Shown piece after piece: positions 2,652 to 56,728 of a stretch of 64,000 nt of DNA (the first letter of the stretch is position 1; each line of letters starts with the position of its first letter). The position numbers and the translations under genes were made by a program. The stretch comes from Rosa chinensis (lineage: Eukaryota; Streptophyta; Magnoliopsida; Rosales; Rosaceae), in the NCBI RefSeq assembly GCF_002994745.2, contig NC_037090.1, positions 4,833,501 to 4,897,500 on the forward strand, read 5' to 3'. The notes under the pieces were generated by a model. That model did not search any database. It saw only the letters and a program-made list of their open reading frames with translations, and was not told the origin of the DNA.

Positions 2652-3708
2652 GCAAGGAGATGTGAGCTTCAGTTTATCAGTTATCCCACAAACAAGGGAA
2701 GGAGAAGGAGCTACCGTTGAAACGAATAGACGACAACGACCAATCGTTTCCTAACTTTTGGGGAGCCATTTTCTTTTTTTTTTCACTCCATAAAAAGATT
2801 TCTTTTTTAAGAAAAAGATGCTTTTAGATCAAATTTGAAAATTTAATCCAATGGATGCAATCACCATATGCATATGTATCTTCTTAGGTACATTAAGGGG
2901 AGAAATTTTGGGTCAATATTGTAGCATATGATTTGCATAATTTAAGGAAGTGAGTTTGAAAATAGTTATTAAATAAAGAAAATACGATACTTTAAAAGTG
3001 GTGACAATCTTCATGTTTTTCATTTAATACAAAATTTATAAGTTCAGCACTTAGCGAATTACAAATGTAATATTAATCCTCTTTTGTTGAGCAAAGTTAC
3101 CCGTCTCCATTTTTTGAATCTATTTATCGATATAATTACCAAGCATATCATTAAAATAAAATTATAATAAGCAAGTTTTCCCCTTTCATATATTGTCAGT
3201 CGGACCTCATTGTAGATACCAAGTAAAATAAGCAACAATGAAGTTTGGATGGTAAAAAAAAAAAAGAAACATAAGAGTGGTTAATTTTTTTGTTAAAGAA
3301 ATTGTGATAAAATGTGCTACCACTTCGAGTCGGGACCTGATTTGAATAAAGCTCTCTCTATAAGATGTTTTTCACAAGCAGATGATCGAACGTTGGACTT
3401 CTTTTAGTATTTACGTCACGTTAGCCCAACTTGCAAGTCTAACGAGATTTCCGCTAGACCAAATCCTTTAGGTTAGAGTGGTTAAATTAAAATAGTGAAA
3501 GTAAAATTGTATGAAACAAAAAGAAATGATGCAAAAAAAAAGTGGATTATTGAAATCTAGCTTCCATAAACGACCTGACGTTAGTGAATATTCCTTAACA
3601 TCCCCACTTCCACTTTACTCGCTTTTCATTTTCACTTTTCGGGCTTTTCCTCTCAAGAGATCGATCTTCCTTCCAATTCAAACCTCCTGAAGCTCCAACC
3701 TTTCAGCA
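2652..3708. other. Intergenic region between divergent aminopeptidase and AXR4 genes
   Basis: AT-rich, no coding sequence seen. It must contain both promoters because the genes diverge. There are several poly-A/poly-T runs but no convincing TATA box, terminal repeats or tandem array. Confidence 0.6.
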
Positions 3709-6684
3709 ATGGTGATCATCACAGAGGAAGAAGACAACCAAAAACGAGACCCCAAACCCTCATCAAGCACCAAACCAACCCACCGTTCAAAACAATCAAA
3801 ACCCACTCCGTCGTCTCCGTCTCCGACTCCGACTCCGCCACCATCAAAACCACCCCAAGAGGTTCAAAGCCCGTTCGCTTTCTGGTTCTACTTCACAATC
3901 ACAGTCTCCATCATAACCTTCTTCTTCATCTCCTTCTCCTCTCTCTCCCCGCAAGACCCAAAGTCTTGGTTTTTAAGCTTACCCACATCGCTGCGTCAAT
4001 TCTACTCCAAGGGTCGCACTATAAAGGTCCAGACCCACCCGGACCAATCCGCCTTTGAAGTTTTCACAGCTGAGAAAGGCGTTACAGAATCGGAGAAGGT
4101 TATAATTGTTCATGGGTTGGGTCTGAGTTCGTATTCTTTTCGCAAAGTAATTGAAGCCCTAGGTTCCAGAGGGGTTCATGTGGTGGCGTTCGATTTGCCC
4201 GGAAATGGGTTTTCGGATAAATCAACGGTGGAGATTGGGGAGAACCCAGGTGGGCTTCTTGGGAGGTTTTCGTTTGTTGTGAGTGAAATTCAAGAAAAGG
4301 GTTTGTTTTGGGCTTTTGATGAGATTGTGGCAACTGGGCAGGTGCCCTTTGAGGAGATAGAGGCTAGGGCATCGAAGCGAAAAGTTGTGAAGCCCATTGA
4401 GTTGGGCCCTGAGGAGGTTGGGAAGGTGTTGGGGCAAGTGATTGAGACAATGGGGTTGGCTCCTGTGCATTTGGTTTTGCATGATTCGGCTTTGGGGATG
4501 GTTTCGAATTGGGTTTTGGAGAATGTGCAGTCTGTGAGGAGTGTGACACTGATTGATACTGGGGCTAAATCGGCAGGGGCTTTGCCTTTGTGGGTTTTGG
4601 AAGTGCCATTGGTTAGGGAGTTAGTGTTGGGGTTTTCGTATGCTCATGCATTGTTGATTAAGATGAGTTGCTCGAGCGGGGTTGGTAGTGTGGATTTGAA
4701 TGCGCATAGAGTTCTTTTGAAGGGGAGGGATGGAACGAAGGCGATTGTTGGAATGGGGAAGAAGTTGAATCGTAGCTTTGATATTGCAGAATGGGGTGGT
4801 TCGGATGGACTGAAAGGAGTGCCAATGCAATTGCTTTGGTCTGAACATTGGTCTAAGGAATGGAGTGAAGAGGGGCGCCGAATTGCGAATGCACTTCCAA
4901 AGGCGAACTTTGTCACCCATTCTGGTGGACGGTGGCCTCAGGTGAAATTCAATACCTTTACACACTACTGCTTGTTTTTCCTGTATATTATATGTTAATA
5001 CCATTTAGAGTAAATTTGGCTGGGTTTCAGTTTCCTTAAATTACGTTTCAAAACAGTAAATGTCTGTTTCAAATCAGTAAATGTTAGAGGGTATAATATT
5101 TATTAACCAAATAAACTTGTTTCTAATGAACACTTGATAATGTTAAATACAGATTTGTAACTTCAAAATTGACACACACAGGGTAGCACCTATAGTATTT
5201 GTACAAGTGTCCCTCCCTGTAGAGTTATAAGCCTATAATTGTTAGGAATAGCAGGCTAACACTTGGGTTGCTGGTCGTGATTTAAAATCAGAATATTATA
5301 GTCCTTGCAACAAAATGTAGAAGTTGCTAAGTGGATTGTAATAGAATTTAGAATTTACTTGCCAATTGTGTGGTCTAAGTAATCTGGTGCTTGGTTTATG
5401 GTCTTTGTGGATAATACTGCTATAATGAAATTGAAGTTTACTACTAAATGGCTACAGTGGAGCTTCGTTTTTTTAGTCTAAGACAGTTGCAGAACAAGAT
5501 TATGATATTGCTTGCCATTAAGGCTTTTGGCAGAGTTTGACGTGCCTTAGTTTCTGTGTTGTTTTAATGTATACTGCAAACTATTGAGACTTGAGGTATC
5601 ATGAAATAATTCTCAGCCCTTTGGGAAAAAAGTACAAACTGTAAAAGTGATGAAGTCTGCATGGTCCAATTCAGCTGAGAGTTGGGTACCATTTTGACAA
5701 GTAGTGCTCATTGTGGTTTATATTTGTCCGAACTCATTTTCCTTAGTCATAGTGGTGAGAATTTCCATGGATTACTAACAGGGACTGTTCCACAATTTTT
5801 GTCCAAAAGATACGGATTGTATATAAAGGTTGCTATAATTACTAAGTGCAAAGTTGTGGCCGATCTTGTATTCTGATGGGTTAAAAATGTTTTCTGGAAA
5901 GGACTGATTTTATGTATCTCTTTTTAGATTGGAGCTTTTGCATGTGTGTTGAGTTCTTTATACAATTTGATACAAGCAAACCTGCTTTTGGTTATGGTGT
6001 AATTTTGTTGGCTTTACAATGTATATTCTCTTCTTGCATGAATGTGGCTATGTCTGCAACATAAGCTATTAATTATGAGGTGCAAAATTACTGCTTCTAT
6101 TGGTGGTCGGGCAGTGACAACACAATATATGTACAGAGGTTGTCCAAAATTGGCTCCTATTACAGTTCAGATGAGACAGAATGCATTATAACATTGTCTG
6201 ATATATGTACTGATCTTTGAAGTGAAAGAATGTTTACGTAAGGTCTAGTTGGATCCATAATGTGTTTGGTTAACAATTTAACATTCATGTGTTATTCTAG
6301 CCATAATGTGTTCTAGTCAGACATTTCAAATGGTTTTTCTAATAGTCGGACACCATGACGAGTACCCCGATAAACTACTCTACTTTTTTACTGTGGATGG
6401 TCTGCTAAGTTGTTTTCCTTTGTTGGTTGATATAGGAGGATGCAGCCGATGAAGTAGCTGGACACATTGCTAATTTTGTAACCTCATTACCTGCTACTGT
6501 CAGAAAGGTCGCCGAAGAGCCGATCCCTGAGCATATTCAGACGTTGCTTGATGAGGCCGAACAGACTGGTCATGGGCATCTTCATGGTCATGCTGGGCAT
6601 GAAGAGCATAGTCATGGACATGTTCATGGGGCTGGAGCTGGTTATCCTGATCCGTACGGCCTTGGTCATGGCCACGGATGGTGA
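3709..6684 (+). CDS. AXR4: AXR4-like alpha/beta-hydrolase-fold protein (auxin carrier trafficking)
   Basis: There are two exons, 3709-4941 and 6436-6684, split by a 1.5-kb intron (CAG/GTGAAA ... TATAG/GAG). Together they encode 493 residues. The Arabidopsis family member is an ER accessory protein needed to place the auxin influx carrier AUX1 at the plasma membrane. The sequence shows an acidic start (MVIITEEED), a Pro/Ser-rich cytosolic stretch, one hydrophobic segment at about residues 56-78, and then an alpha/beta-hydrolase fold with HGLGLSSYSF (135-144) and AFDLPGNGFSDKS. The nucleophile-elbow position reads LHDSALG rather than GxSxG, so it is probably not a standard esterase. Exon 2 encodes a His-rich tail (GHGHLHGHAGHEEHSHGHVHG). 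Identity is supported along the whole length as I know the family (WFLSLP, HDSALG, FVTHSGGRWPQ). The next gene downstream matches Arabidopsis gene order. Confidence 0.93.
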
Positions 6685-18893: not shown

Positions 18894-19670
18894 GCCCTAT
18901 ATCATTGCCCTACTATAAAATCTACATAAATAAGCATACCTTCATCTGGCATAATAACACCCACTTGTAATTCACCCACACACACACACACAAACACAGG
19001 AATGTTTAGAGGCAGTGTCCGCAAAGGACTTTACGAAGTGCAAATTATATCTTCCAAATTAATATCAGTCGTTGGATGGGTGTAATCGAACTTCAACGCC
19101 TTACTTGAAAGCCAACGTGTACGTGATTCTAGTTTGTCACTTTATTTCTTTCTTTCTTTGACCAAGTTTGTCAAGAACCACATTGCAGCTCTCTCATGAA
19201 TCATCTTGCTTCAGAGAGATGGTGAGAATCTAAAACTAGAAACCACAGATTTGTTGAGGACTTTTCCACTTTGAGATAAATCTCATTGCACCACCCACAA
19301 AGCTTCTCACCTCTCTCACCCATCAATAATAGTACGGCTAGATCCAGAAACACATACTGAATTTCACGTTAACATATAATTATTAAAGATGGAGAAGAAC
19401 TAAAAAGAAAATGAGAAAACAGAGAGCTATCCCAACTCGAATTCTCACTGACAAAAAGACAAATGTGAAGATTAAAAGCAAAGCCAGAGATTTTGGATCT
19501 AAGAGAGAAGAATTCGTTCAAAGCATATGCAAAATCTAATCTTGATATCTACGATCTCATCTTGAATCCCAAATATGGGCTTCTATTTCTTTTTTAAATT
19601 GTAGAAGTGAATAGTGATGCGTTGAGACTTGAGATTTGAGAACTTGGGAGTTTGAAGCGGTGAGAGCGCA
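18894..19670. other. Intergenic DNA left of the solo LTR
   Basis: No gene seen. It contains a short (CA)n run near 18978-18993. The last five bases, GCGCA (19666-19670), are the left target-site duplication of the adjoining solo LTR. Confidence 0.5.
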
Positions 19671-21716
19671 TGATAGGAGCATTTTAATGTGATATTTTAA
19701 ATGTTAATTCCTCACATTTTGCTTAGTTATTCCTTAACGAATCGATTTTTAACTTAATTTCTAATTTTAGGTACATTGGAGTAGATGAAGAAGAAATGAG
19801 TGTTACGTCCATAATTACCTAGAAATGATGGAGAAGAATGAAAATGCACTAAAAAGTCAACCTTGAATATTTTCTTACTCCGGCTAGGAGAATCAGAGCC
19901 AAGCAAGGAAGAAGGAGCGGCCACCTGACCAAATGAACTCGAAATGAGCTGAAACTCGGCAGATCCATTCTAGACACCCAAATGATCATTTCTTATGAAG
20001 AGTGCCAGAGAAAAATATGAGTGGAAGGCCTTCAAACAATCAGCCCAATTTTCTACAGAAGTAAAACTGGAAAACTGGACCTGTAAGAGGTCCAGCAGCA
20101 TTTCCGGCCCAACCACATGGAATAAAGCTCTGAAAATTTGTCAGGATGATCTACACTCATAGTGGAACATTTTTTATGAAGAAGTCGAAGGCTCATTCTG
20201 AAGTTTTGATGGAGAAATAATTGAAGGAATAAAGGGGAAGAAACTGACCTGAAAACAGCTCAACACCACATATTCATGTTTCCCACCCATATGAAGAAAG
20301 CATTTCTTTTTCCTTGGATACATTTTTTCTACCCTAAAAGATCATCATCACTTCCACATTTCTTCACCTTCATGCTTTGCTTTCATCATTACCTCATCTT
20401 TTACATATTTTACAAACCACTCTCATACTCCACTTTCATTATTTTTCTTCATCTCATCATTTCACTCTTCTTTTTCTTCCCTATTTAAACACCTTCTCCT
20501 CTCACTCTCAATCACCAATTTCTGAATCCATAACACATCTTCCTTCATCCATCTCATCTTCTTTGTCTCTCCATTTCCTTTCCATTTTCTCTCCATCCTC
20601 TAGTGCATTCAACGTTTCAAGCAAGGGAGAAGAAGAAGAAGAAGGAGCCGTGAGCATCATCATCCATCCTCCACCTTGAAGCTTGCTTTCGAGATTCAAG
20701 AATCCATAACGTTTCATCCTTCATCCCCATCTCCATCTCACGGTGTAATTCAACCTCTTTCTTTGTAATCTTGCTTAGTTTCGTGAGAATTATTTTTAGT
20801 TGACATTTATGTTTGAATAAAGTTTATATTCTGAAATTTTATGATTGAATAAGGATTTTCGATTTCTATGTTGTGATTCCATAGTTGCTTATGTGTGATT
20901 GTTCGATTGAATTTGCTTGATAGAAAACTTTTATATGTTTATCTTATTTGGGTCGACACTTATAGGATTTGCATGTAATTGGTGCTAGGTTTAAGAACAT
21001 GAAATCGACTTTTCGTTTTGTGTAAACTTGAATCAAAGTAGTAAAGGTTTTGGACAAAAATCGAATTCAATTGAAGAGGATTGCAATTAGGTGAACTTAT
21101 TCATACTAAGTTGTACACTTGAGTTGATAGCCTTTCTCTATGTGTAATGCATTAAACATGACATGATTGACTAGCTTTCTAGGGCTTGATTGCATGTTTG
21201 ATAGGATTGATCTAGGTGCTTTCGCTTAGGTTAATTAGCATTGAAAAGTAAAATATGGGAAATCATTTGCTTTCGAATGTTTCACATGATCAACTCCTCT
21301 CTCATGACTTGGAAGAACAATTATAGGGTTTGAATCGAATTTGATTACATGGAATTGATTTTGATCTTTGTTCCTTGCGTTCCACCCTTGTATATATGTT
21401 TTTACGTTTTCTTTATTTTATTTATTTTAATTTTAATTTTAAGAATCCTAAACCCCCCCCCTTATTTGTGTTTACTTGTATATATTTATTCTTTATTTTA
21501 TTTTTGTAAATAATACTTTTTTATTTTAATTCTTTATTTGTTTATACAATTGTATATTTTTTTTATTCTTTATTTTATTTTTGTAAATAATAATTTTCTT
21601 TATTTGTTTCACAATTACATGTGTACCCTCAATCCCCGGAATAGAACGATCCCTATTTGCTTATACTACTAACGATATTTCAGGGTTAAATTGCGCGCTT
21701 GCTTCGAGCGACATCA
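19671..21716 (+). mobile_element. Solo LTR, same family as the WOX-carrying retrotransposon
   Basis: It starts TGATAGGAGCATTTTAATG and ends GACATCA, and is flanked by identical 5-bp duplications GCGCA (19666-19670 and 21717-21721). It shares its first 100 bases, a TATA region near 20478 (CCCTATTTAAACACC) and most of its last 900 bases with the LTRs at 22535 and 29399. It is longer (2046 bp) because of extra sequence at about 19800-20270, so it belongs to a divergent subfamily. Intact flanking duplications point to LTR-LTR recombination of a former full element. Confidence 0.88.
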
Positions 21717-21737
21717 GCGCACACGCGTCATCTACCC

Positions 21738-22302: not shown

Positions 22303-22534
22303 GGATTCGGCTCCTCTAAAGTGAGTAAGTCATGAAGTTCATAAAACCTCCAACTTCCATTTAATCTAATAGCTCAATCATATCCACGTTAATTAACAAA
22401 TTTTAAAAATTTCTTTTCCATATTGACCTTAATACTATACATTTTTTTTCTTTAATTATTTAGTCTTCATCTTTGTTCTCTGCTTCTAGGAACCTGAGCT
22501 TCCATAGATTTCTCAGAAAAACAAAGTTGCATAG

Positions 22535-24388
22535 TGATAGGAGCATTTTAATGTGATATTTTAATAGTTAATTCCTCACATTTTGCTTAGTTAATTCCTT
22601 AACGAATCGATTTTTAACTCAATTTCTATTTTCTTAGGTACATTGGAGTAAATGATGGTGAAATGAGCATTATGTCCACACTTACCTACAAATGGTGGAG
22701 ATAAAATTGAAGTAAATGAGTAGGAAATCCATCATCATCATCACCCAAAAATATTCCATGTTTTAGGGTGTAATCATCATGTTTTCTCCATCATTTCTCA
22801 CACTAATCCACCATCATCATCACCCAAAAACATTCCATGTTTTAGGGTGTAATCATCATGTTTTCTCCATCATTACTCACACTAATTTACTCCATCTTTT
22901 CCAATTTCACTCTTCTTTCTCTTCCCTATATAAACACCTTCTCCTCTCATTCCAAAACATATTCCTTCATCCATTCCATCTTCTTTGTCTCTCCATTTCC
23001 TTTCCATTTTTCCACAACATTCCTTCATCCATTTCATCTCCTTGTCTCACCATTTCCTTTCCATTTTCCCAAACATTCCTTCATCCATTTCATCTTCTTG
23101 TCTCACCATTTCCTCTCCATTTTCCTTAGTCACCAATTCCTTCATCCATTTCATCTTCTTGTCTCACCATTTCCTCTCCATTTTCCTTAGTCACCAATTC
23201 CTTCATCCATCTCATCTTCTTTGTCTCTCCATTTCCTTTCCATTTTCCTTCTCCATTCTCTAGTTTTAAGTTTATGCATTTTCAAGCAAGGAGAGGAAGA
23301 AGAAGAAGGAGCCGTGAAGATCATATCCTCCATCATCCACCTTGAAGGCTTGCTTCCAAGATTCAAGATCCAACCATCTAGCTCTCCATCTCCATCTCCA
23401 CTCACGGTGTAATTCGTTCCTTTTCCTTGTAACCTTTTTGGTTTTCTTGTTTGAATTCATATGAACTTGTTTCTAGTTAACAATAATGTTTAGGGTAAAG
23501 TTTAAACCCAACTTCTATGTTTAAATAAAGTTTTCGAATTCCATAATTGTGATTCTAAGTTGCTTATGTGAGTTTGTTCAATTGAATTTGCTTGATAGAA
23601 AACTTTTATATGTTTATCTTATTTGGGTCGACACTTATAGGATTTGCATGTAATTGGTGCTAGGTTTAAGAACATGAAATCGACTTTTCGTTTTGTGTAA
23701 CTTGAATCAAAAGTAGTAAAGGTTCTGGACAAGAATCGAATTTAATTGAAGAGGATTGCAATTAGGTGGACTTTTCCATAACTAAGTTGTACACTTGAGT
23801 TGATAGCCTTTCTCTATGTCTAATGCGTTGAACATGTCATGATTGACTAGCTTTCTAGGGCTTGATTGCATGTTTGATAGGATTAATCTAGGTGCTTTCG
23901 CTTAGGTTAATTAGCATTGAAAAGTAAAATATGGGAAATCATTTGCTTTCGAATGTTTCACATGATCAACTCCTCTCTCATGACTTGGAAGAACAATTAT
24001 AGGGTTTGAATCGAATTTGATTACATGGAATTGGTTTTGATCTTTGTTCCTTGCGATCCACCCTTGTATATATGTTTTTACGTTTTCTTTATTTTATTTA
24101 TTTTAATTTTAATTTTAAGAATCCTAATCCCCCCTTATTTGTGTTTACTTGTATATATTTATTCTTTATTTTATTTTTGTAAATAATACTTTATTATTTT
24201 AATTCTTTATTTGTTTATACAATTGTATATATTTATATTCTTTATTTTATTTTTGTAAATAATACTTTTCTTTATTTGTTACACAATTACAGGTGTACCC
24301 TCAATCCCCGGAATAGAACGATCCCTATTTGCTTATACTACTAACGATATTTCAGGGTTAAATTATGCGCTTCCCAAAAGCGGCATCA
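22535..24388 (+). repeat. 5' LTR of the WOX-carrying retrotransposon
   Basis: 1854 bp, TG...CA ends (TGATAGGAGC ... GCGGCATCA). A TATA box (CCCTATATAAACACC) lies near 22925. The first 450 bases are nearly identical to the 3' LTR; the middle third is closer to the solo LTR at 19671. Confidence 0.9.
22966..23250. repeat. Variable tandem repeat just downstream of the LTR TATA box
   Basis: About five copies of a roughly 55-bp pyrimidine-rich unit (CCTTCATCCATTTCATCTTC ... CCATTTCCTTTCCATTTTCC). The 3' LTR has about two copies (29826-29940) and the solo LTR about one (20545-20600). Copy number explains much of the LTR length difference. Confidence 0.8.
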
Positions 24389-24393
24389 ATTTT

Positions 24394-24410
24394 TGGCGCC
24401 GTTGCCGGGG
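24394..24410 (+). promoter_or_regulatory. Primer-binding site, tRNA-Asp type
   Basis: TGGCGCCGTTGCCGGGG starts 5 bases after the 5' LTR. It is complementary to the 3' end of plant tRNA-Asp(GUC) including CCA, as I recall that sequence. Confidence 0.85.
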
Positions 24411-25604
24411 ATTGAAAAATCACTTGTTAAATTGTGTCATTTATTGTATATATTTGTTGTTTAAAAATTGTTTGAAACTTAGTTTAAATTAACTAGGATG
24501 TTATTTATATTATTGAACACGAATTTTAATTGTAGGTTGTAAATTGAGAGGAATAGGTGAAGTCTCTTTTGTTAATATTGGCCTAAACCCCTTACTGGTA
24601 CCTAGCTCAGGTCCCTTAAGGTTGAGGGCGGCCTTTATTAACACTTGTTGAACTGTCTTCACACTTATGAACTTTTTCATCTTAGTAAGCATAGCCTATG
24701 TGGAATGGTGTCTAGGAATGGGACAACGTTCATGACGGGTTTTTGAATCCAGAAGTGCTTGCAAATGGGCATAAACCACAATGTGGGAGTAGCTCATGCC
24801 AAAATGGATTTTTCCTCTCGTGTTCGTCCTCCCCCACCTGGCCATTTCAGTAAGGTTGCCCAAACGATTTGAAAGGGAGTTTGTGTCTAGGCGACTATAC
24901 TTGGGCCGCACGTCCACTTGATTTACCGCTTGGAATTTGATTCGATATCAATAATGTTTATAATAAAAGAAATACTTGTGAATACTCTATACGTGTAAAT
25001 TATTTTGTTGTTTCACACTTTAAACTTGTAAAAATACTTTTCACGTTTTATACTCACTTGAGTACTTAACTTGTGTCTTATGTACAATATACTTGTTAAT
25101 TATACTTGTAGTTTGTAATTAATAGTTATACTTGTTTTTATTTTGTATTTCTTTGTTAATTATAGTTACTAACTTTATTTAATGTAGGTACTGTCTGGCT
25201 GCAAGACGTAAAATACAAGCGCTACTTGGGAGGCAACCCAATTCAGAATATAATCAGATTTGCTTTCTCTTTCCCTATTTCTTTTTATTTTTCAATTTTT
25301 CTCTTTAGTTTTTATTTTAGGATTTATTTTCGTAAATTTCATCCCTATATGCTTACTTATTTCATTGCATGCTTTTAATTGATTACATTGAAGATAATGC
25401 AATATTTAAGTGTGGGGGAAGAGATTTATATTTTTGTCTTTCATTTTGAGTCCAATATATATTTATATTTGTCTTTTATTTTTGAGTCCTTTATATAAAA
25501 AAAATAAATAAATAAATAAAAACTGCATTCATTCTGTCTTATTAAATTCAGCTATTTAAAAAAAAACAAAAAAAAAAAACAAAAAAAAAACTTTATACAC
25601 TATA
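24411..25604. other. 5' internal region of the LTR retrotransposon
   Basis: No gag-like coding sequence. It contains GGGAGGCAACCCA (25229-25241), an AGATTTGCTTTCT block, and TTAAGTGTGGGGGAAGAG near 25408-25425. All of these recur in the same order at 27428-27640, on the far side of the WOX gene and the small plus-strand ORF. A-rich and (AAAT)n-like sequence at 25496-25590 borders the WOX stop codon. Confidence 0.7.
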
Positions 25605-26216
25605 CTAAGCTATGTCTGCATTTCCGTAGGAGTTGAGGCTGAGCTCAAGGGAAATGCGAGAGTCACCGCCATAGCCGCTACCTCCCTCGGAAGTAGTCTT
25701 CATGTTGCCAAAGATGTCCTCACCATGCATGGGGAATAGTGGAAGGGTTTCAATCTCCTGGTGATATTCTCCTCGTTGTTCCATGATCGATCCATCAACA
25801 CCATAGCCGACACGTGACCCAAAGTTTAGATCAATGGATCTACCATCATCAGTAGAACTAGTGGATCCAAAATTGAGATCGAGAGATCCACCAACCGGAA
25901 CGTTCCGAAATTCCTTCAACTTCTGCCTCTCACGAGCCTTGAGGTTCTGGAACCAAAAGAAGACGTTTTTGTCCTCGATCTGCCCATACTGTTTCAGATG
26001 GAGGCAGATCTCTTGAATCTGCTCTGGAGTTGGGTACTTAAAACCCTTATCATAGTAAAGGCCCTTGAGGATTCTTAGTTGAGGCGGTGTGGGAGCCCAC
26101 CGGTTACTACTCCCGGCTGCTTGGATGCTTCCTCCCTCCTCGGTTGGTTGCTGGGCTTGTAATTCCATTTGTTGCTGGGTTTGTAACTCCATTAGTTGCA
26201 GAGTTCGTGGTTCCAT
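25605..26216 (-). CDS. WUSCHEL-clade homeobox (WOX) protein, captured inside an LTR retrotransposon
   Basis: Uninterrupted 203-codon gene on the strand opposite to the retrotransposon. WOX proteins are plant transcription factors that keep stem-cell niches and pattern organs. The homeodomain spans about 38-102: [20 protein letters not shown] at its start and [17 protein letters not shown] in helix 3, with the invariant W, F, N and R. After it come two [16 protein letters not shown] repeats, a WUS box TLPLFPMH (157-164) and an EAR-like repressor motif LELSL (190-194), so all functional modules of a WUS-clade factor are present. It is shorter than Arabidopsis WUS (292 residues) and has no intron. 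The start chosen ([10 protein letters not shown]) fits a 5'UTR of about 85 bases from the TATA box; an in-frame ATG at 26417 lies upstream of that box and is unlikely. I cannot say which WOX gene was the source. Confidence 0.93.
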
Positions 26217-26326
26217 GTTGATGAAGAAAGGATTTGAGTTTCGAAAGAAAGGCTGAAGGGTTGAGAGAGAAAGGCTGGAACTCGGAAGAATTTTCTTTTG
26301 GAGTGAACAGTCGCTCAGAATGCACC

Positions 26327-26334
26327 TATTTATA
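26327..26334 (-). promoter_or_regulatory. TATA box of the captured WOX gene
   Basis: On the minus strand CTATAAATAGG (26325-26335) lies about 110 bases before the ATG at 26216. A G-box (CACGTG) occurs upstream at about 26443-26448. The gene therefore appears to have its own core promoter, independent of the LTR. Confidence 0.7.
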
Positions 26335-26450
26335 GAACGAGTGAGCAGATCTCCACCGTTGGATCGACGATCTCTGAGATTAAATCTACGCGTTGGATTA
26401 AAGTCACCCGAAAACACGGAAAAGCTGTTGGCTCGTGAAGGACACGTGGA

Positions 26451-26640
26451 GGAACCAAACTGATCTCGAGGAGCTGTGACAGATAAGCTACAGCCGAAAG
26501 CAGGTATGATTGCCGTAAATTAAGGAAAAGAAAGGACGCGTGGGGGAACCAAACGAATCTCGAGGAGCTGTGACAGACAAGCTACAGCCGAAAGCAGGTC
26601 TAATTGCCATAAATCCAGGAAAAGAAAGGAATATTTACGC
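26451..26640. repeat. Two-copy 94-bp tandem duplication upstream of the WOX gene
   Basis: GGAACCAAACTGATCTCGAG at 26451 recurs at 26545 as GGAACCAAACGAATCTCGAG. Both copies continue with GAGCTGTGACAGA, AAGCTACAGCCGAAAGCAGG and GGAAAAGAAAGGA, and both end near an ACGCGTGGGG motif. Confidence 0.88.
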
Positions 26641-26845
26641 GTGGGGGAGTTTTTCATGTGCATACGTGTTTCTTGGGCCGTGAACTGTCATAACTCTTCT
26701 CCTTCCTGGAGAAGCTTTGTTAAAACCGTGTGTTTGTTGAGATTTCTACCCTATTTTGTGCTTCATATATACATCCTTTTTTGTCTCCTCCAGATTTTAC
26801 TAAGGTTTTTCTAAGCGTGCAGTCTCAAATTCCTTCTACTTCCTC

Positions 26846-27376
26846 ATGGCTAGAACCAAGGTAACCCCTCGCAGGGGCGTCAATCAACGCCATGTTCTCT
26901 CTTTGGAGGAAGAAGGTCGTCAAGCGGCCACTAGAGCTGGGCTTACTCGTCCATGGGACCATCGTCCTATCCGTGAGCGTACCCGCAGTCCCCCTCCTCT
27001 GCCTCGTCGCTCTCCCAGACTGCATCCCGGAGAGTCTTCTTCCTCACCAGCTGCTCATGCTCCTCGGCCTATGGCCACCCTGGAAAGCTTGTCGGATTCG
27101 ATTGATGATTTGCGTTCCTCTCTCCGCGATGGTATTATGGTGACAGATTGGAGAGTCAATTGCATGATCGATTACATCTCTGAGATGAACTGCTCTTTGA
27201 TCCGCTGTCACACTGCAATAAACAAGCTTGCTCAGGAAGTCAATAACTTGCAGAGTTATCCTCCTGGGTTTCCTCGCAAGGACGCTACTGCATCACAACA
27301 TGAGGACCCGCCTCCGAAGGCTGAAACCAGCAAGAGGGCTGCCACTCGCCCGCATACCGCTCCTCCAAAGGAGTAA
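26846..27376 (+). CDS. Uncharacterised 176-residue ORF in the LTR retrotransposon
   Basis: Open ORF reading in the same direction as the LTRs and divergent from the WOX gene. The protein begins MARTKVTPRRGVNQRHVLSL, has a basic, Pro/Ser-rich N-terminal half and a shorter, more helical C-terminal half (SLSDSIDDLRSSLRDGIMVT ... INKLAQEVNNLQSYPPGF). I recognise no enzyme or gag motif, and no zinc knuckle. The N-terminal MARTK resembles the histone H3 tail only by a few residues. A weak TATATA at about 26766 lies 80 bases upstream. It could be an accessory retrotransposon ORF or a second captured sequence. Confidence 0.5.
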   Translation: MARTKVTPRRGVNQRHVLSLEEEGRQAATRAGLTRPWDHRPIRERTRSPPPLPRRSPRLHPGESSSSPAAHAPRPMATLESLSDSIDDLRSSLRDGIMVTDWRVNCMIDYISEMNCSLIRCHTAINKLAQEVNNLQSYPPGFPRKDATASQHEDPPPKAETSKRAATRPHTAPPKE

Positions 27377-29385
27377 ATGGAGGTACAAGTCTAGGCGGAA
27401 AGACTTTAAACATTAAGCGCTGCATGGGAGGCAACCCATTTCAACTGTAGCTGTGGAGGAGCCATCAAACGCAGATTTGCTTTCTTGAACTCTTCCTTCT
27501 ATTTTATTTTCTTGAATTTTAAGTTGTTTTAAGTTTCGTTGTGTTAACTTTCTCTTCTATGCTTGATTTATGCTTTGCATGATTTATATTTGTTTATACA
27601 TTGAGGACAATGCATGAATTAAGTATGGGGGAAGGATTATTGCTTTATTGTGTTTTTAGTAGTTAGTATATAAAAAAAAATTGAAAAATAGTTGATGTTG
27701 GATTGTGTTTTATTGTGTTTTTAGTTGATGTTGTGATACACTAAGGTATATTGGATTAAACATAGTCTTGAAAAAGGGTAGCTGTTTCAGTCCCATTGCA
27801 CATCGAGACTCCCTGTTCCCGTACCTAAGTGTTGAAATTAAATTAATTTAAAAAAAAAAAAAAATTTGTTGGTTTTAGAGTGTTTTTGTTTGTTTGAGTC
27901 TTAGGATGCTCCTACCGTCTAGGATGAACATGTCTCCGAATTCATGGCTGAAGGTTTTTACAATCAAAATAGGACTTAATTGAATTCTGTGGTTAATCGA
28001 CATTGTGATGCTTGTATGAAGATTTGAGATAGGATTGTAACTTGGTTCATTAAGCATGCTAGGATTAAGTCTGATTCATTTGACCCAAGTGAGTTGTTGA
28101 GCTAAAATACTTTCTTTTCGAGTGCTTATTGATAAATTCAGAATTTCATGGCTGTATTTGCAAAACCTCATCTTTCTTTGAAAATCCAATGATCATGTGC
28201 CATAGATTTTAATGGACTAGAGAGTACTAGAACTCGGCTGTTGTGACTGTCAAAACTTGTATGCCATAATATGCCCTGATCTTGGATAGGATAGAAGGCA
28301 TTAGGGTAACCACCATAGCCAAACAAGCATGTGTCCCCAATTGTGCCCGTCGTGGGACTCCTTAGAATGAACCCCTTTGAGCCTACGTTGAAAACCTTTG
28401 TTTCATCACCCTCACTACCCTACCATGAGCTTAGTACAGGATATCTCTACCCTTGTCTTAAGGACTTAGTAGAGCATGACATAGTATGTAGGGGTGACGA
28501 TGAAAGACAAGTGTGGGGTGGGAAAAAATCCAAGAAAAAAAAAAAAAAATTGCCTTGAAAAAAGGAAAGAAAGAAAGAAAGAAAAGCGGCAAAAGAGAAG
28601 AAAAAAAATTGAAAAGAAAACTCTTGGGAAAATGTTGAAGTGTGGTTTTGGACTTGCAAATTTGTAGAAGGCTCAAAGTTGAAAATTATGCCTTTGTCCA
28701 TTCCCATGTTGGTTAGAGTGAAGGTTTGGCCCAAAACAATGATATTTGGTCTACAAAAATGATGACATAAGGTGGTCCTTATATGCTCTGCTAGGTCCTT
28801 AGGATTTTTTGTATCCTTAATCTTCATTTCGAAAACCCTAGCTTAGCCCCATTACAACCTGTTTTAAGTGCTGACTTGATCCTTGAGATGGGCAGTCTTT
28901 GGTTAGTGGAGTCAGTTACGCAGTCGAGCTTATGGTTTAGGTCCATTTGTGCACTTAGTCATTTCATGAGGTCTTTAAAAATTCTTCACAAAATGTGTTT
29001 ATTGATGAAATATGCAAGCTGGTTGTTGCCTTACAATTTGTTCTCTTGCATATACTTGAGTGTGAAGCTTTTAAGCATAGCCATTTCTGAGAGAAAAATC
29101 GAGAGTATGCCCTGTGAGTTTGGATTGGACTTGTTCGAAACATGCTATCATTCACTGTATAACTTAAGTTCTCCATTTCTTGCTTAGTCATATGAATGTC
29201 ACAGGTTTATTAACCATGGAATTATCTTTGTGATTTTGATTAAGTGTTTAACGTGAAAGCCATGAGTTTGGAGTCTCTGAGACAACAGTTAGGAGCAATA
29301 GAGTCATTTACTTGCTTTTTGTCAAGTCTTTGTTCTGTTTTGGATTTTTTTTGTTTTGTTTTGCTAAGGGACTAGCAAAAGCTAA
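27377..29385. other. 3' internal region of the LTR retrotransposon
   Basis: Begins with a second copy of the block seen at 25218-25428 (GGGAGGCAACCCA at 27428, AGATTTGCTTTCT, then TTAAGTATGGGGGAAGG at about 27620). The rest is AT-rich and non-coding, with A-rich and GAAA-rich stretches at 28530-28620. No polyprotein motifs were found. Confidence 0.65.
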
Positions 29386-29398
29386 GTGTGGGGGAATT
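29386..29398 (+). promoter_or_regulatory. Polypurine tract of the LTR retrotransposon
   Basis: GTGTGGGGGAATT directly precedes the 3' LTR start TGATAGG. It is the expected plus-strand priming site. Similar TTAAGT(G/A)TGGGGGAAG strings lie at about 25408 and 27620. Confidence 0.8.
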
Positions 29399-30994
29399 TG
29401 ATAGGAGCATTTTAATGTGATATTTTAATAGTTAATTCCTCACATTTTGCTTAGTTAATTCCTTAACGAATCGATTTTTAACTCAATTTCTATTTTCTTA
29501 GGTACATTGGAGTAAATGATGGTGAAATGAGCATTATGTCCACACTTACCTACAAATGGTGGAGATAAAATTGAAGTAAATGAGTAGGAAATCCATCATC
29601 ATCATCACCCAAAAATATTCCATGTTTTAGGGTGTAATCATCATGTTTTCTCCATCATTTCTCACACTAATCCACCATCATCATCACCCAAAAACATTCC
29701 ATGTTTTAGGGTGTAATCATCATGTTTTCTCCATCATTACTCACACTAATTTACTCCATCTTTTCCAATTTCACTCTTCTTTCTCTTCCCTATATAAACA
29801 CCTTCTCCTCTCATTCCAAAACATATTCCTTCATCCATTCCATCTTCTTTGTCTCTCCATTTCCTTTCCATTTTTCCACAACATTCCTTCATCCATTTCA
29901 TCTTCTTTGTCTCTCCATTTCCTTTCCATTTTCCTTCTCCATTCTCTAGTTGCAAAGTTCTGCGTTTTCAAGCAAGGAGAGGAAGAAGAAGAAGGAGCCG
30001 TGAAGATCATATCCTCCATCATCCACCTTGAAGGCTTGCTTCCAAGATTCAAGATCCAACCATCTAGCTCTCCATCTCCATCTCCCCTCACGGTGTAATT
30101 CATTCTTTTTCCTTGTAATGATCTTTTGTTTTCCTTGTTTGAATTCATATGAACTTGATTCTAGTTAACAAATAATGTTAAGGGCAAAGTTTAAAGCCCG
30201 TTTATATGTTTTGAGATAAAGTTGTGATTTCTATATGTTGATTTTTATGTTGCTTATGTGGGTTTGTTTAATTAAATTTGCATGATAGAAAACTTTTGTA
30301 TTTTAATCTTATGTGGTTGCAAACACTTAGGGTTTTGATATAATTGGTGCTAGGTTTAAGAACATGAAATCGACTTTTCGTTTTGTGTAAACTTGAATCA
30401 AAGTAGTAAAGGTTTTGTGCAAAGACCGAATTTAATTAAAGAGGATTGCAATTAGGTGGACTTTTCCATACTAAGTTGTACACTTGAGTTGATAGCCTTT
30501 CTCTATGTCTAATGCGTTGAACATGTCATGATTGACTAGCTTTCTAGGGCTTGATTGCATGTTTGATAGGATTAATCTAGGTGCTTTCACTTAGGTTAAT
30601 TAGCATTGAAAAGTAAAATATGGGAAATCATTTTCTTTCGAATGTTTCACATGATCAACTCTTCTCTCATGACATTTAAAATCAACTATATGAATTGTAA
30701 TTGGATTTCTTGCATATGGATGTGGTTTTGATCCACCCTTGTATATATGTTTTTACATTTTCTTTATTTTATTTATCTTAATTTTCAATTCTATAATTCT
30801 TAAACCCCCCTCCCTTTTTATTTTGTTACTTGTATATATTTATATTCTTTATTTTATTTTTGTAAATAATACTTTTCTTTATTTGTTTCACAATTACAAG
30901 TGTACCCTCAATCCCCGGATAGAACGATCCCTATTTGCTTATACTACTAACGATATTTTCAGGGTTAAATTGCGCGCTTGCTTTGAGCGCGTCA
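29399..30994 (+). repeat. 3' LTR of the WOX-carrying retrotransposon
   Basis: 1596 bp, TGATAGGAGC ... GAGCGCGTCA. The TATA region is CCCTATATAAACACC near 29789. It matches the 5' LTR closely for about the first 450 bases and again in blocks, but differs strongly at about 30170-30340 and at the extreme 3' end. Confidence 0.9.
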
Positions 30995-31557
30995 CATAGA
31001 TTCATGTGGTACATGAGTGCTTCAGTCCTTCATACCCCACATAGATAAGATTATTGCGGTTAATGAATGACTGAGATTTACTCCAACAAATTTATAAACC
31101 TAAAGCTTGAAAAAATTCGGGGATCAATGCATACACATGGCCATCATCTCCAATAATCAATATATGATGCAAAATACAAAGCGAGCCTATGAATGAATGG
31201 CAGAACTACGAAACCACTTTGGATTTATTAAAGTATTTGAGAGTAAAGAAACAAATTAAAGATTTTACTATTTAAAGCTGAAAACAACCTATGAAATTAG
31301 CATCAAGTTTAAAATTATGAATTCTGATATGAAAAATTGCTTTATCCTAGTTTTACGAAATTTTTTTCTTTCTTTTTATTAATTTTTTTAATTTCTTGTT
31401 GATAGAGAAAATACTCCTATGTATAATAATTCAAACACTTGGTATTTTTTCAATGTGGATATGTTTGAGCCATTAGATTAAATAGAGGTTGGAGATTTTA
31501 TGAACTTCACGAACTTCATGACTTGCTCAATTTAGAGGAGCCGGATCCATCCAATAC

Positions 31558-46041: not shown

Positions 46042-46609
46042 CCAGTCAAGGAGGGCAATCTTGGTTGGGGAGTTGTTCGGCGGTTTGAAGCGTTTTCTTC
46101 CGCTAGACTTGCAAGAGCATAATTAGCGTCAGTGCGTTGTCAACCGTTGGTTTTACTGATCAAACGCTTTATACCCTTTCGGGTGGGCCCCTGCTGGGCC
46201 CCCCAGGGAGTCCCCCACTCCCCGGCGAAGATAGACCTCCGGATGGTCGGTAATTTGTTTGATGAGGGGGAGCTGAACGGAGCAGAGGGTGTTGGGTAGC
46301 GAGCCCAATGTTTAGCACCCAAATGACGGGGGTCAACGTGCCTGATCAGGGCCGTCGTAGACTGTTTGACTAGTCCCCGTGTCCCGTAGGGACGGTCTGA
46401 CGGTAACGCCGCGTGGCGGTCGTTGTCAGAGTGAGGCGTAGCCTCGGGATTTTCCGTTGGCGGATATCCCCCCGCTAGATGCAGCAGGAAGCAGCGTCCG
46501 ATAGACGTGCCTGGCCGTATTTTTGCAAGATGAAAAGAAAGGTTCCGCCAGCGGTGTGTAGCGAAAGACACCCCGCCTGTAGGGTAGCAAGGGGGAAGTC
46601 CTGCTGGCG

Positions 46610-47210
46610 GGGACTTCGTTTCTTGGAAAATGACAAGGGAGAAGTTCCGCTGGCGGGGTTTGCTCAGCGGAGACTTCGTCTCTTGGAAAATGACAAGGGA
46701 GAAGTTCCGCTGGCGGGGTTTGCTCAGCGGAGACTTCGTCTCTTGGAAAATGACAAGGGAGAAGTTCCGCTGGCTGGGTTTGCTCAGCGGATACTTCGTC
46801 TCTTGGAAAATGACAAGGGAGAAGTTCCTCTGGCTGGGTTTGCTCAGCGGATACTTCGTCTCTTGGAAAGTGACAAGGGAGAAGTTCCGCTGGCGGGGTT
46901 TGCTCAGCGGAGACTTCGTCTCTTGGAAAATGACAAGGGAGAAGTTCCGCTGGCGGGGTTTGCTCAGCGGAGACTTCTTCTCTTGGAAAATGACAAGGGA
47001 GAAGTTCCGCTGGCTGGGTTTGCTCAGCGGATACTTCGTCTCTTGGAAAATGACAAGGGAGAAGTTCCTCTGGCTGGGTTTGCTCAGCGGATACTTCGTC
47101 TCTTGGAAAGTGACAAGGGAGAAGTTCCGCTGGCGGGGTTTGCTCAGCGGAGACTTCGTCTCTTGGAAAATGACAAGGGAGAAGTTCCGCTGGCGGGGTT
47201 TCCGAAGTTG
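46610..47210 (+). repeat. 60-bp tandem repeat array with 240-bp higher-order period
   Basis: Ten units of exactly 60 bp, each containing TGACAAGGGAGAAGTTCC and GGTTTGCTCAGCGGA. Sequence variants mark four unit types (GGCGGGG/GAGAC; GGCTGGG/GATAC; TCCTCTGGCTGGG; GAAAGTGAC). The order A-B-C-D from 46681 is repeated as A-B-C-D from 46921. It lies before the TATA box of the antisense gene. The long open frames across it are an effect of the 60-bp period. Confidence 0.93.
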
Positions 47211-47432
47211 CCCCTTCGGTGGTTAATACGTGTCGAGCCTATAGCGGGTTAGCGTGCGTAGGTTTGTCTGCTAAGCCTGTCCGTCTTCTAGCCTTTAATG
47301 ACAGTAACTGTGGGTTTCGTAACCGAGATGACGCCTCGGGCAATCCGGAGAGTGAGTGGAGACGTACGACACGTGTACGGCTAACAAGTGATGTCGGTTT
47401 GGAGTGGATGGTTGAGGACGCATTGGGGCCGA

Positions 47433-47440: not shown

Positions 47441-47897
47441 GGGGGAAACTCTGGGGGATTCGACACTTTGTGAAAATTTTGAAAGCTTAGCCACCGTTCG
47501 TCCGAAACCGGAGAAGGAGCCTACCGAAGTTTGGGTATACCACTCCCAGAGAGACGCCGGTCGTAACTGTGCACCACCGTGCCGGAGATTGCATCACTGA
47601 GGTTGGTATTCGGATCTCTGTCTTCTGCTATTTGTTTCTGCTAGTTTCTGGGTTTTGTTGTGTTTGCTTTTCTGGGTGTGTTCTGAGGTGTGAGATGGGG
47701 TTTTTTGTGGGGGGTTGAATGATGGTTGGCCAATGCGTTTAGTGGTTTAGGATTTGGATAGCCGAGTCTGGGTTGAGTGCGTTTGTTTATACTTTGGAGT
47801 TTTCTGGGTTTTGTTCTTGATTATTTTGGCTATATCTGATGCGAGAATAGGCTAGATCTATGTTTGTGCTAACTGCTGTGGGTTTTAGGGTTTTGGG

Positions 47898-50607
47898 ATG
47901 GCTAGCGTTATAGAGATTTCGAGCAGTGAGGATTCCGGGTCTGACGTGTCGCTCAGCGCGGCGGATGGGATTTTTATTGATTCGTTGCGTCCGTCTGCCC
48001 CTGCAGGAACCTCACTGCCAGAAGCGCTAGACGTCGAGCCGCTACAGACCATCCCCTGGGAAGTAGTTATGGGTCGGGGTTCGCGTCCGGAGAGTTCTAA
48101 GGCGGGCGAGGCCGCTGCCGCCAAAGCCAGGCGCGACGAGCGTCTGGCGAGTAATAGTGCTGCCAGCGGCTCCGCTGGGGAGGGAGAAACAGCGGAGCAG
48201 AATGTTGAGTCAGCGTGGTTCCTCCCGGATGGGACAGCCGTTGACGAGGCGGGAGGGGGGATGAGCAGTGCTGCTGTCGCTCGACTGAAGCAGGCGTTCC
48301 GGTTGCCGGGGTCGGTGAAGCTGCGCCCACCGACGGCTGATGAGAAGGCGTCGATTCTCCCGACGGGGTGTGCGGCCGTGCACGAGGCCATATTCCGCCA
48401 AGGAGTGACACTTCCGCTGGTGCCCAATCTCCAAATCCTTGTTTGCGAGTTTGGCCTTGCCTTTGGTCAGATCTGTCCCAACATGTGGTGGTTGATGTTG
48501 GCGATGAACTCCTTGTGGCGCTTGTCGGGGTGCGAGGGGCCTACCGTGGCGGAAGTGCTTCATTTCTACGAGTTAGTATATGTGAAGCGCCAAGGTTGCA
48601 AAGGGCAAGTAAACTTGAGTCGCCGGCAGGGAGCGCCCAAGCTGATCGAGAATCTGAGGGACTCCATGTCCTATTGGCGGGGGACCTTTTGCGTCGCTAC
48701 CGACGGTTGGGAGTACCATGCTAGGTCTAATGAAGAAGGGCCGTCATTTAGGATTAAGTCTGAGTTCCAACCTATTCGAGGTTGGTGTTCGGTGTCCGCT
48801 GAAAATGTTTGGTGTGCTTACATGCTTGAACTTGTATTCTTACTAACGACGTGTCTTTTTTGTGCAGCGGGACTTCGGTATACGCTGACGCGTGAAGAAG
48901 AGTGCCGCGTGGCGAGGATCAGAGGTTGCTGGCGGAACCGAAACTTGCTTGATTTCCGCCTGCTGACTGGTTGGGAGTTATTGGTCGACCTGCGACTAAC
49001 ACGCTCCATTGGTGAGGAGTCTACCCTGTCGTTTCGTTTTATACTATTGAATTGTGTCTGACTGGTGGCTGTCTTCTCTCTGTTTTTTTTTAGAAACTCC
49101 GCCGGGCAACAAATCAAGTCGCGACGCGTTTGAGAAGGCGATGGATCGGGCGGAGATAGAAAATTTTTTGGAGGCCATGTACGCCGAGGGGCTGGCGGCC
49201 CAGGAGACTCTGGTGAACCCGGAGACGTTGGCGTTGAGCCAGTCCGAGGTTCCGGTGGTGATGGCGATGCCGCACCAGTCTCACCTTGGTGAAGATGGTC
49301 TGCCTGTGGTGCAGGCGGGGACACAGACGGTCGGCGGGGATCAGAGGGGAAGTGCTGCGGCCGGGCCTCAGAAGGAGCGGATGCCTGCCCAGAGGCGTGG
49401 TCCTCAGACGGTGGTTCAGCCGGCAGGAGAAGTCATTGTGACGAGGGAGGAACCGCCAGTAAGGGCGACTAGGGCCGCCGCTGGGGGCCAGAGGGCGCTG
49501 GAGAAAAAGCGCCGGACGGCTGAGTCTCCTGACGAGGAAGAGGGAGAAGAGGTGGAGGTGGTTGGGGCCCGCCGACAGAAGAAGGCCCGCCAAGCTCCTG
49601 CAACAACTGCGACGGTGGAGGGAGAGGCGCCCGCCGTCAGCGATCTGGACTCCTTCGCCGAGTATGCGGCATTCATGACAGAAGGGGAGCGGGAGTTCCT
49701 CTTCCATCTGTGTGAGCGGCTGGGGTTCGGGGGTCTGGCGGGCATATCGCGCCCGACGGCAATTGACCAATCGCCCTTCAGCTCGGCGTTTGGTCAAATA
49801 TCGGCGGGGTTACACGATATGTTCGTGGCGGCGTCAAAGCAGCCCCGGGTTGAGGAAGAGCTCAAGGGAGAAATCGGAGGTCTCCAGAGGGAGCTGGCGG
49901 AGGCCAAGGAGAGACTGGCGGAGCTCGAGCGGGGACTGGTCAAGGCGGCATGTGATTATGCGGACGCCCGCGGCAAGCTTAATGCGGCCATTCGGCGGGA
50001 TCTGGAGAGGAATGAACACGTCTCCAAGTTAGAGCAGGAGATCGGGCTGCTGCAGGAGCGGATAGCCGCTAAAGACAAGAAGCTCATTATAGTGCAGCGG
50101 GAGTCCGCCGAAAGGATGGCCGAAATGAAGCGGCTGGGGGGTGAGGTTACCCGCTTGAGAGCTGAGGGGAGCACCGCTGCGGCCGCTGCTGTTGAAGCAT
50201 TCAAGCAGTCGGCGGAGTTTAAGAAGACACTGACCGAAGCGGCGAAGTCTGGGGCCCGGGCCAATATAGATATGTTGAAGCGGAAGGGTGCCATTGACTT
50301 TGTAAAGGCGTCACAGCCTGACGTGCCGCCGGTCGATAGTGTCCGCGCGGAGACAGAAGTCGTGCCTGCCCCAGCTGTAGGTACTCATTCGGGCAGCGGG
50401 GAAAGTGGCCCACATCCGACGGAAGGGTCGCAGCAAACTCCCCGGCAGACCCCGTCGGAGGTGTCACGTGCCGGATTTCTGGAGGCACACACCCGGGCCG
50501 ACGGCACCATAGAGACCCCCAGTCCGACCGCCCGAGGGTCTGATCAAGCGAGCCGATCGGTCGCGCCGCCAGTCGCTGAAGCTGCCGAGGCCGAAGCCAA
50601 CCGCTGA
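47898..50607 (+). CDS. Antisense accessory gene of the Tat retrotransposon (Transposase_28-like, three exons)
   Basis: Read on the strand opposite to gag-pol. Three exons, 47898-48780, 48868-49011 and 49094-50607, join in phase to 846 codons; borders are CGAG/GTTGG...GTGCAG, ATTG/GTGAGG...TTTTAG. The first exon has an acidic start (MASVIEISSSEDSGSDVS), a disordered stretch, and then a folded region with FRQGVTLPLVPNLQILVCEF and FYELVYVKRQGC. This is the type annotated in plants as 'putative gypsy type transposon' (Pfam PF04195). Exon 3 encodes a long charged coiled coil (LQRELAEAKERLAELERGLV ...) and a Pro/Ser-rich tail. The role is unknown. An AATAAA lies 80 bases after the stop. The same splice borders occur in copy 2, which supports real splicing. 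Confidence 0.82.
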
Positions 50608-50686
50608 ACCTATCTGAGACCTCCAAAGTTTTTTTTTTTTTTTTGTGTAGCCGCTGGGGCACCTTTGTTTGTAAAGAAGTTTGTGG

Positions 50687-50692
50687 AATAAA
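50687..50692 (+). terminator. Polyadenylation signal of the antisense gene
   Basis: AATAAA, 80 bases after the TGA at 50607 and before the convergent end of gag-pol at 51013. The equivalent place in copy 2 also has AATAAA (about 63131). Confidence 0.5.
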
Positions 50693-51012
50693 GTAAATTT
50701 CTGACTTGGTTTGGTATGATGTGTGTGTAGCATTTTGAGTTATATTTTTCTTTTGTCGATCAATGGAACATTAAAGGAATTAAGATTGGCCCAAGTGCAC
50801 TACGTAGCGGACGGGGTCCGCCGACGATTGCTGGCGTTGCCAGTTGCCCTTAGTGCTAGACTTGGTAACAATGGTTTGAATAATTCCTCGTTTCATTGAT
50901 GGCTGACTGATCAGCGTACAAAAGTGGGGTAGTACCCGTTGGGTAGCTTCCCTTAGCTAAATATTGGAACAAAAATTTAGCTAAGTCAAGATGCGCATGG
51001 GTAGCGGTCTGA

Positions 51013-56694: not shown

Positions 56695-56728
56695 GGTGAT
56701 TGTAGCGGGATGACCTTTTGTTCAAAGA

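Follow-up and report, generated by a model that had tools for sequence, protein, structure and literature searches.

Why should a complete stem-cell regulator lie inside a mobile element, in the opposite direction to it, and is it carried there as cargo? The question is raised by a stretch of the Rosa chinensis genome, 64,000 bp long (the window), for which a preliminary description made from the sequence alone had claimed an intact WUSCHEL (WUS)-clade WOX frame, antisense inside an LTR retrotransposon flanked by a perfect 5-bp duplication. We followed up these claims by analyzing the anatomy of the element, its other copies in the same genome, the origin of the WOX gene and the constraint on its protein. 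The main reading, which we rate at a probability of roughly 0.7, is that a non-autonomous family of rose LTR retrotransposons captured a host WUSCHEL gene and carries it as an antisense accessory gene with a TATA promoter of its own.

The WOX-bearing element in the window

The element spans 8,460 bp (22535-30994) and has the features of an LTR retrotransposon, namely LTRs with TG..CA ends, a 5-bp target-site duplication (TSD), a primer-binding site (PBS) and a polypurine tract (PPT). The 5' LTR (1,854 bp, 22535-24388, + strand, with TATATAAA at 22927) and the 3' LTR (1,596 bp, 29399-30994, + strand) are bracketed by the duplication CATAG, identical at 22530-22534 and 30995-30999, so that the ORF does lie between LTRs with a perfect 5-bp repeat, as claimed; the inner bounds first given, 24389-29398, are exact. 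A PBS-like sequence, TGGCGCCGTTGCCGGGGA (24394-24411, + strand), begins 5 nt past the 5' LTR, and the PPT, GTGTGGGGGAATT (29386-29398, + strand), abuts the 3' LTR. The exact PBS motif recurs in 18 of 20 other fetched copies. This PBS is probably of the tRNA-Asp type, and its type and the resemblance of the PPT may point toward the Athila or Tat lineage of Ty3/Gypsy elements; the 64-kb window contains no tRNA gene against which to check the PBS. Since PBS and PPT put the sense of the element on the + strand, the WOX ORF (25605-26216, - strand) is antisense, which upholds the original orientation.

The two LTRs of this copy form a mosaic: their first 535 bp are 99.4% alike and most of the remainder 83-87%, with 126 differences over 1,591 sites and none in the first 400. 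They also differ in sub-type, the 5' LTR being 97% like that of copy L013 and the 3' LTR at most 90% like any other. Two LTR sub-types in one element with a perfect TSD suggest that the inserted copy later underwent gene conversion or recombination. Nearby is a solo LTR belonging to this family (19670-21716, + strand), with its own duplication, GCGCA, at 19665-19669 and 21717-21721.

Within 24389-29398, WOX and a sense frame, ORF176, are the only ORFs that reach 150 aa, and neither has a gag or pol domain by Pfam. The element is non-autonomous, with no gag-pol in its interior. ORF176 (176 aa, 26846-27376, + strand) lies beside WOX, is arginine- and serine-rich at its start, and matches no Pfam family at a score above the cut-off; its relatives with a named source come from Rosa only. 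It is intact in 18 of 21 copies (the window and 17 of the 20 fetched), is divided between two frames in both L009 and L017, and is cut by a rearrangement in L026. Among the 18 intact copies, which were chosen without regard to this frame, its pN/pS is 0.39. ORF176 may be cargo as well, or what is left of gag. Two internal modules, at 25217-25420 and 27415-27640, resemble each other (GGGAGGCAACCCA ... GGGGGAAG) and each ends in a polypurine-like run; copies L023 and L024 contain a repeat of about 1.2 kb of their interior, at inner positions 3468-4699.

The WUSCHEL ORF encodes 203 aa, has no stops, and sits in a stop-to-stop opening of 304 codons. Its homeodomain (HD; residues 39-102, 25911-26102, - strand) matches Pfam PF00046 with an E value of 5.8e-11 and keeps R38, Q89, N90 and R94 (AtWUS numbering), the residues that contact DNA bases in AtWUS (PMC7203112). 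The two PDB matches of the ORF are WUSCHEL (6ry3, E 5e-22) and STENOFOLIA (6wig, E 1.6e-19); the first aligns gap-free whereas the second requires a gap at the extra tyrosine specific to WUS, Y54, which is present in the window ORF and in 59 of 63 Rosa proteins. Two DLNFGS units follow (residues 109-118 and 125-134, 25815-25892, - strand), which are absent from Fragaria and Argentina WUS. These units differ from each other by 6 silent and 2 replacement changes (P 0.005), a comparison that is biased in that the units were spotted through their protein likeness. The WUS box, TLPLFPMH (residues 157-164, 25725-25748, - strand), and an EAR-like LELSL (residues 190-194, 25635-25649, - strand) complete the set, and neither has a single replacement among 36 copies. 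An HD closest to WUS and containing Y54, a WUS box together with an EAR motif, and a place within the WUS tree make this a WUS-clade WOX, and the claim of an intact frame stands.

The frame is preceded by a candidate promoter. A TATA box, TATAAATA (26327-26334, - strand), precedes the WOX ATG by 118 bp; when the upstream 200 bp were shuffled 2000 times, TATAAATA never appeared. Across 21 copies the box has this form in 15 and the form TATAATTA in the other 6. Farther upstream is a 94-bp tandem repeat (26438-26625, - strand), with a G-box, CACGTG, at 26443-26448; a G-box occurs within 450 bp upstream of WOX in all 21 copies. Auto-regulation by WUS through sites in the LTR was considered and rejected, as neither TGAA pairs nor TTAATGG are enriched relative to shuffles.

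Elsewhere in the window, a Gypsy-type gag-pol element (47889-56721, - strand) encodes reverse transcriptase, RNase H and integrase. Long + strand ORFs at 47889-50607 run against it and form another antisense pair, and a second copy of these ORFs is found at 60318-63043; Pfam gave no family above its cut-off for those of them that were tested. Next to this Gypsy element, 46140-47250 is made up of minisatellite-like repeats with several open frames on both strands.

Copies, recent movement and origin of the WOX gene

How many such genes does the genome contain? A search for the WOX protein, in which 150 of 688 candidates were scored, gave 201 matches at no fewer than 150 places in the same genome; 142 of these 150 have no stop within the match and 8 have one. 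When a non-coding flank of 206 bp was used as the query, 455 first-look candidates were obtained, of which 40 were scored. In a protein search that found 158 relatives, the nearest named ones among the best 120 all came from R. chinensis or R. rugosa, the largest of their clusters having 91 members; a search of viral contigs gave no relatives. By contig, the copies listed among the at least 150 number 98 on C2, 26 on C3, 13 on C7, 12 on C1 and 1 on C43. It is of note that 149 of the 150 lie within C1:59.8-67.9, C2:34.0-87.4, C3:0.8-15.7 and C7:2.8-19.1 Mb, together about 92 of 515 Mb, and that none is on C4-C6. Clustering in four blocks could reflect targeting of certain regions, or hybrid ancestry of the cultivar, one of whose parents would have had a burst.

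Do other copies share the arrangement seen in the window? Twenty further copies, the top ones by protein rank, were fetched whole, and none of them lacks the WOX frame. In 18 a PBS is visible, and the frame runs opposite to it; in L017 it runs opposite to the LTRs. The rearranged L026 shows inner sequence only, in an unchanged layout. The preliminary description had looked to further copies for the WOX gene, and it is found both in these 20 of 20 and in 35 of 36 copies chosen by non-coding flank. Both ends could be seen in 12 elements (11 copies and the window, of 21), and all 12 have perfect 5-bp TSDs that are all distinct, in agreement with the earlier claim that WOX moves with the element. 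The two LTRs of ten elements differ at 0, 0, 1, 1, 2, 3, 5, 6, 6 and 9 of 1,658-2,113 aligned sites (gaps uncounted). With 0-9 differences per pair, the family has moved very recently, and these data show very recent transposition of a WOX-bearing element.

In a tree of 55 hand-picked proteins the 40 Rosa rows are a single clade (100/99) within Rosoideae WUS (100/99), which also includes Fragaria and Argentina. A 75-row tree, from which one Rosa row shorter than 150 aa was dropped, agrees (supports 98 and 100). A phylogeny with all host WOX proteins had been envisaged at the outset; our trees took in WUS-type proteins only, other WOX types being compared through PDB matches alone, and within that range the ORF falls in Rosoideae WUS at 100/99. 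Three near-canonical Rosa proteins (P0134, P0130, P0132) are basal in the Rosa clade. In a side clade of Rosa WUS (P0055, P0045, P0046, P0049, P0057, P0127, P0131) valine replaces Gln89, while Asn90 and the WUS box core are kept, as mostly is the EAR motif.

The captured gene is collinear with WUS, running from MEP..QPTEDGG through the homeodomain and the WUS box to the EAR motif, with the middle part lost and the DLNFGS units gained. The lost middle covers the point at which the WUS sequences P0133 and P0139 run off after KYSNICQG; this run-off, if read as an intron edge, fits an RNA-mediated capture. As judged from the trees and the collinearity, the captured gene is shown to stem from Rosoideae WUS, and at this level its host donor can be named.

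Tests of constraint on the protein

Has the protein been kept since its capture? A first DNA set of 41 ORFs, ranked by protein, had pN/pS values of 0.113 in the HD, 0.60 outside it and 0.45 for the whole ORF. When protein-ranked sampling was simulated under neutrality, the HD value of 0.113 was reached in 7.5% of 53 coalescent runs and in none of 60 burst runs. The whole-ORF value of 0.45 was dropped as evidence of constraint because such sampling can produce it by itself in the simulation. Since protein ranking biases this set, a second one was chosen by the non-coding flank: 36 of 39 places outside the window were fetched, the other three having been sampled before, and the 35 that bear WOX were analyzed along with the window, making 36 copies.

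Among these 35 flank-chosen frames, 34 have no premature stop and one has a stop at 75; of the 34, 31 reach their own stop (195-228 aa) and three run to the end of the fetched piece. Their proteins diverge by up to 21%, and their silent sites by about 10% on average. The pN/pS for the 36 copies is 0.228 in the HD (bootstrap 0.066-0.359), 0.000 in the WUS box plus EAR (16 codons) and 0.736 in the rest; it is 0.60 for the whole ORF and 1.20 (0.92-1.58) in the C-terminal third, despite the fixed motifs there. Silent changes per codon are equal across the HD, the two motifs and the rest (0.23-0.25); replacements per codon are 0.36 in the HD, 0.00 in the WUS box and EAR, and 0.62 in the rest. Outside the HD, WUS box and EAR the 95 replacement and 38 silent changes look neutral against a spectrum-based ratio of 2.64. 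Minor residues in the HD each occur in at most 3 of the 36 copies. Gap intervals are multiples of three in 6 of 6 coding cases vs 28 of 133 non-coding ones (17 elements). Other tests give less: polymorphic-site counts for the HD in the flank-chosen set are weak (shared, P 0.12; single, P 0.25), and a Fisher test of HD plus motifs vs the rest gives P 0.059. The preliminary description held that a Ka/Ks near 1 among copies would speak against it; the ratio is well under 1 in the HD (0.23) and the WUS box plus EAR (0.00), but this does not extend to the whole ORF (0.60) or to its other parts (0.74).

At the protein level, 63 Rosa proteins were compared; rows that lack part of the HD (P0035, P0052, P0053 and P0056 among them) were set aside, as were some short ones. 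N90 and F88 are kept in all 63, R38 in 61, R94 in 58 and Q89 in 50. All Rosa rows together have 11 invariant HD positions vs 0.8-1.2 expected from neutral simulation. The derived clade has 25 vs 10.5-11.0, a number reached in 0 of 300 simulations each, and the most recent clade shows a slight excess (39 vs 31-33, P 0.03-0.05). At the HD core, changes seen in a single protein are nearer to neutral, with 7 vs 8.0 in the recent clade and 25 vs 29.7 in all Rosa (P 0.11); in the derived set there are 9 vs 16.1 (P 0.004) by one definition of the core and 17 vs 19.3 by the other. HD invariance in the deep clades combined with near-neutral private changes suggests that constraint acts mainly on the lineages that spread, and that individual copies, once inserted, drift. 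In spreading lineages, constraint on the homeodomain, WUS box and EAR is supported, though not by every test.

Competing explanations and known systems

The anatomy of the element, the antisense layout of its WOX gene and the hundreds of candidate copies are matters of observation. What might the element gain? We propose that the antisense WOX gene has a promoter that drives its transcription in dividing cells, if only for a short time, and that its predicted product is a DNA-binding repressor of the WUS type that would help the element lineage persist. The simplest route would be better expression or survival of element-carrying cells of the shoot meristem, the source of the germ line; replication proteins would be supplied by a putative autonomous relative. 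That the element gains from WOX is, we infer, the best single account of the data. A more specific version is offered tentatively, with the odds somewhat against it: a selfish element that targets the meristem, in which the captured stem-cell regulator helps it to enter or favor the founder cells of the next generation, making this an antisense ORF with a known donor.

The main rival is a passenger gene: an element that gains nothing from WUS would have picked it up accidentally and multiplied it along with itself, the frames being open because the bursts are recent. The almost identical LTR pairs, the neutral ratio of most of the ORF and the mostly near-neutral copy-private changes agree with this, as does the near silence, in RNA-seq of rooting cuttings, of the WOX genes in rose-only clades (359 of 364 nearly silent, five not; PMC11405225). 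As to the dosage or dominant-negative effects on the host that were suggested at the outset, these published data speak for low expression. Yet the flank-chosen copies have accumulated their protein and silent divergence while, over the length read, no premature stop is found in 34 of 35 ORFs, none of the six coding gap intervals shifts the frame, the WUS box and EAR have no replacements, and 25 HD positions are fixed in the deeper Rosa tree; we regard chance carriage as unlikely. Could the constraint instead be that of the host, with at least one WUS-like gene under ordinary selection seeding the element time and again? The basal position of the near-canonical P0134, P0130 and P0132 would suit such a source, but the amplified copies are one derived clade with DLNFGS units, and the within-family signal comes from copies that have the element's non-coding flank in common and so lies among elements. 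We regard repeated seeding as rather improbable.

The useful product might also be an antisense RNA, forming dsRNA with the genomic transcript or silencing host WUS. A role of this kind has been proposed in print for other antisense ORFs (PMC7264820), and the antisense layout, with a TATA box in 21 of 21 copies, agrees with it. It calls for no reading frame, HD, WUS box or EAR, yet these are kept, and we give it very little weight. Finally, an LTR pair mis-assembled around a normal WOX gene, or an ordinary WOX gene between unrelated LTRs, might be suspected from the difference between the window's own LTRs in their second part; it is refuted by the fetched copies, which hold the ORF in the same element, and by the differing duplications of the 12 elements judged.

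The preferred reading, capture by the element, bears on the WOX family of roses as a whole. R. chinensis has 381 WOX genes, 364 of them in rose-only clades and 226 on chromosome 2 (Duan et al. 2024, PMC11405225); R. multiflora has 170 and R. rugosa 105. As described there, the motifs of most clade V members match those of the window ORF, and motifs 2 and 4, which the window ORF also has, occur in the vast majority of clades I-V. Genome duplication was supposed in that study, which reports no collinear pairs within rose, calls for further evidence and leaves the cause of the expansion open; the word stem 'transpos' does not occur in its main text. In the literature searched, no link between rose WOX genes and a retrotransposon was found among the matches listed, and the LTR carrier of these genes is new. 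Recent element copies appear to explain the 381-gene family, and most rose WOX 'genes' are probably element cargo. In 2012 R. multiflora was described as having, at the Rdr1 locus, a 23-kb region with a 'WUSCHEL protein' match that R. rugosa lacks (PMC3503547), a difference of the kind that a moving copy could produce.

The closest parallels are the antisense ORFs in the inner region of plant Gypsy elements such as Retand, Grande and RIRE2 (PMC11963269, PMC7264820). That of Retand mostly has a predicted DNA-binding product, that of Grande has its own promoter, and many families have the ORF in all or most copies, as with rose WOX. Those ORFs, however, lie between pol and the 3' LTR, have TRP28 or other domains and are of obscure origin, whereas the rose element lacks pol and its donor is plain. 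No word beginning with 'homeo' or 'WUS' occurs in these two papers, of which the 2025 study describes the origin of plant antisense retrotransposon ORFs as open (PMC11963269). One such ORF is now given a clear host origin. The Transposase 28 domain (TRP28) of Retand does not occur in the WOX ORF, in which Pfam found only the homeodomain.

Genes transduced by LTR elements are often partial. In maize Bs1 and in rice and sorghum elements, host coding sequence lies within LTRs, as here (PMC11963269, PMC13317346). Transduced genes are described as usually sense and in one or few copies (PMC11963269, PMC7264820), whereas the rose WOX gene is complete, antisense, equipped with a candidate promoter and present in hundreds of candidate copies. 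A 2026 review of gene capture contains no word beginning with 'homeo', 'WUS' or 'Rosa'. Orchid Gypsy elements with an ORF for an ALKBH-type m6A demethylase likewise have a recently gained host-like domain that was kept through rounds of replication (PMC9289625). The orchid case concerns an RNA enzyme in a 25-kb element, the rose case a developmental transcription factor in a pol-less one. With the rose family it becomes testable whether a mobile element can benefit from carrying the regulator that defines the stem cells of plants, through which the germ line is reached.
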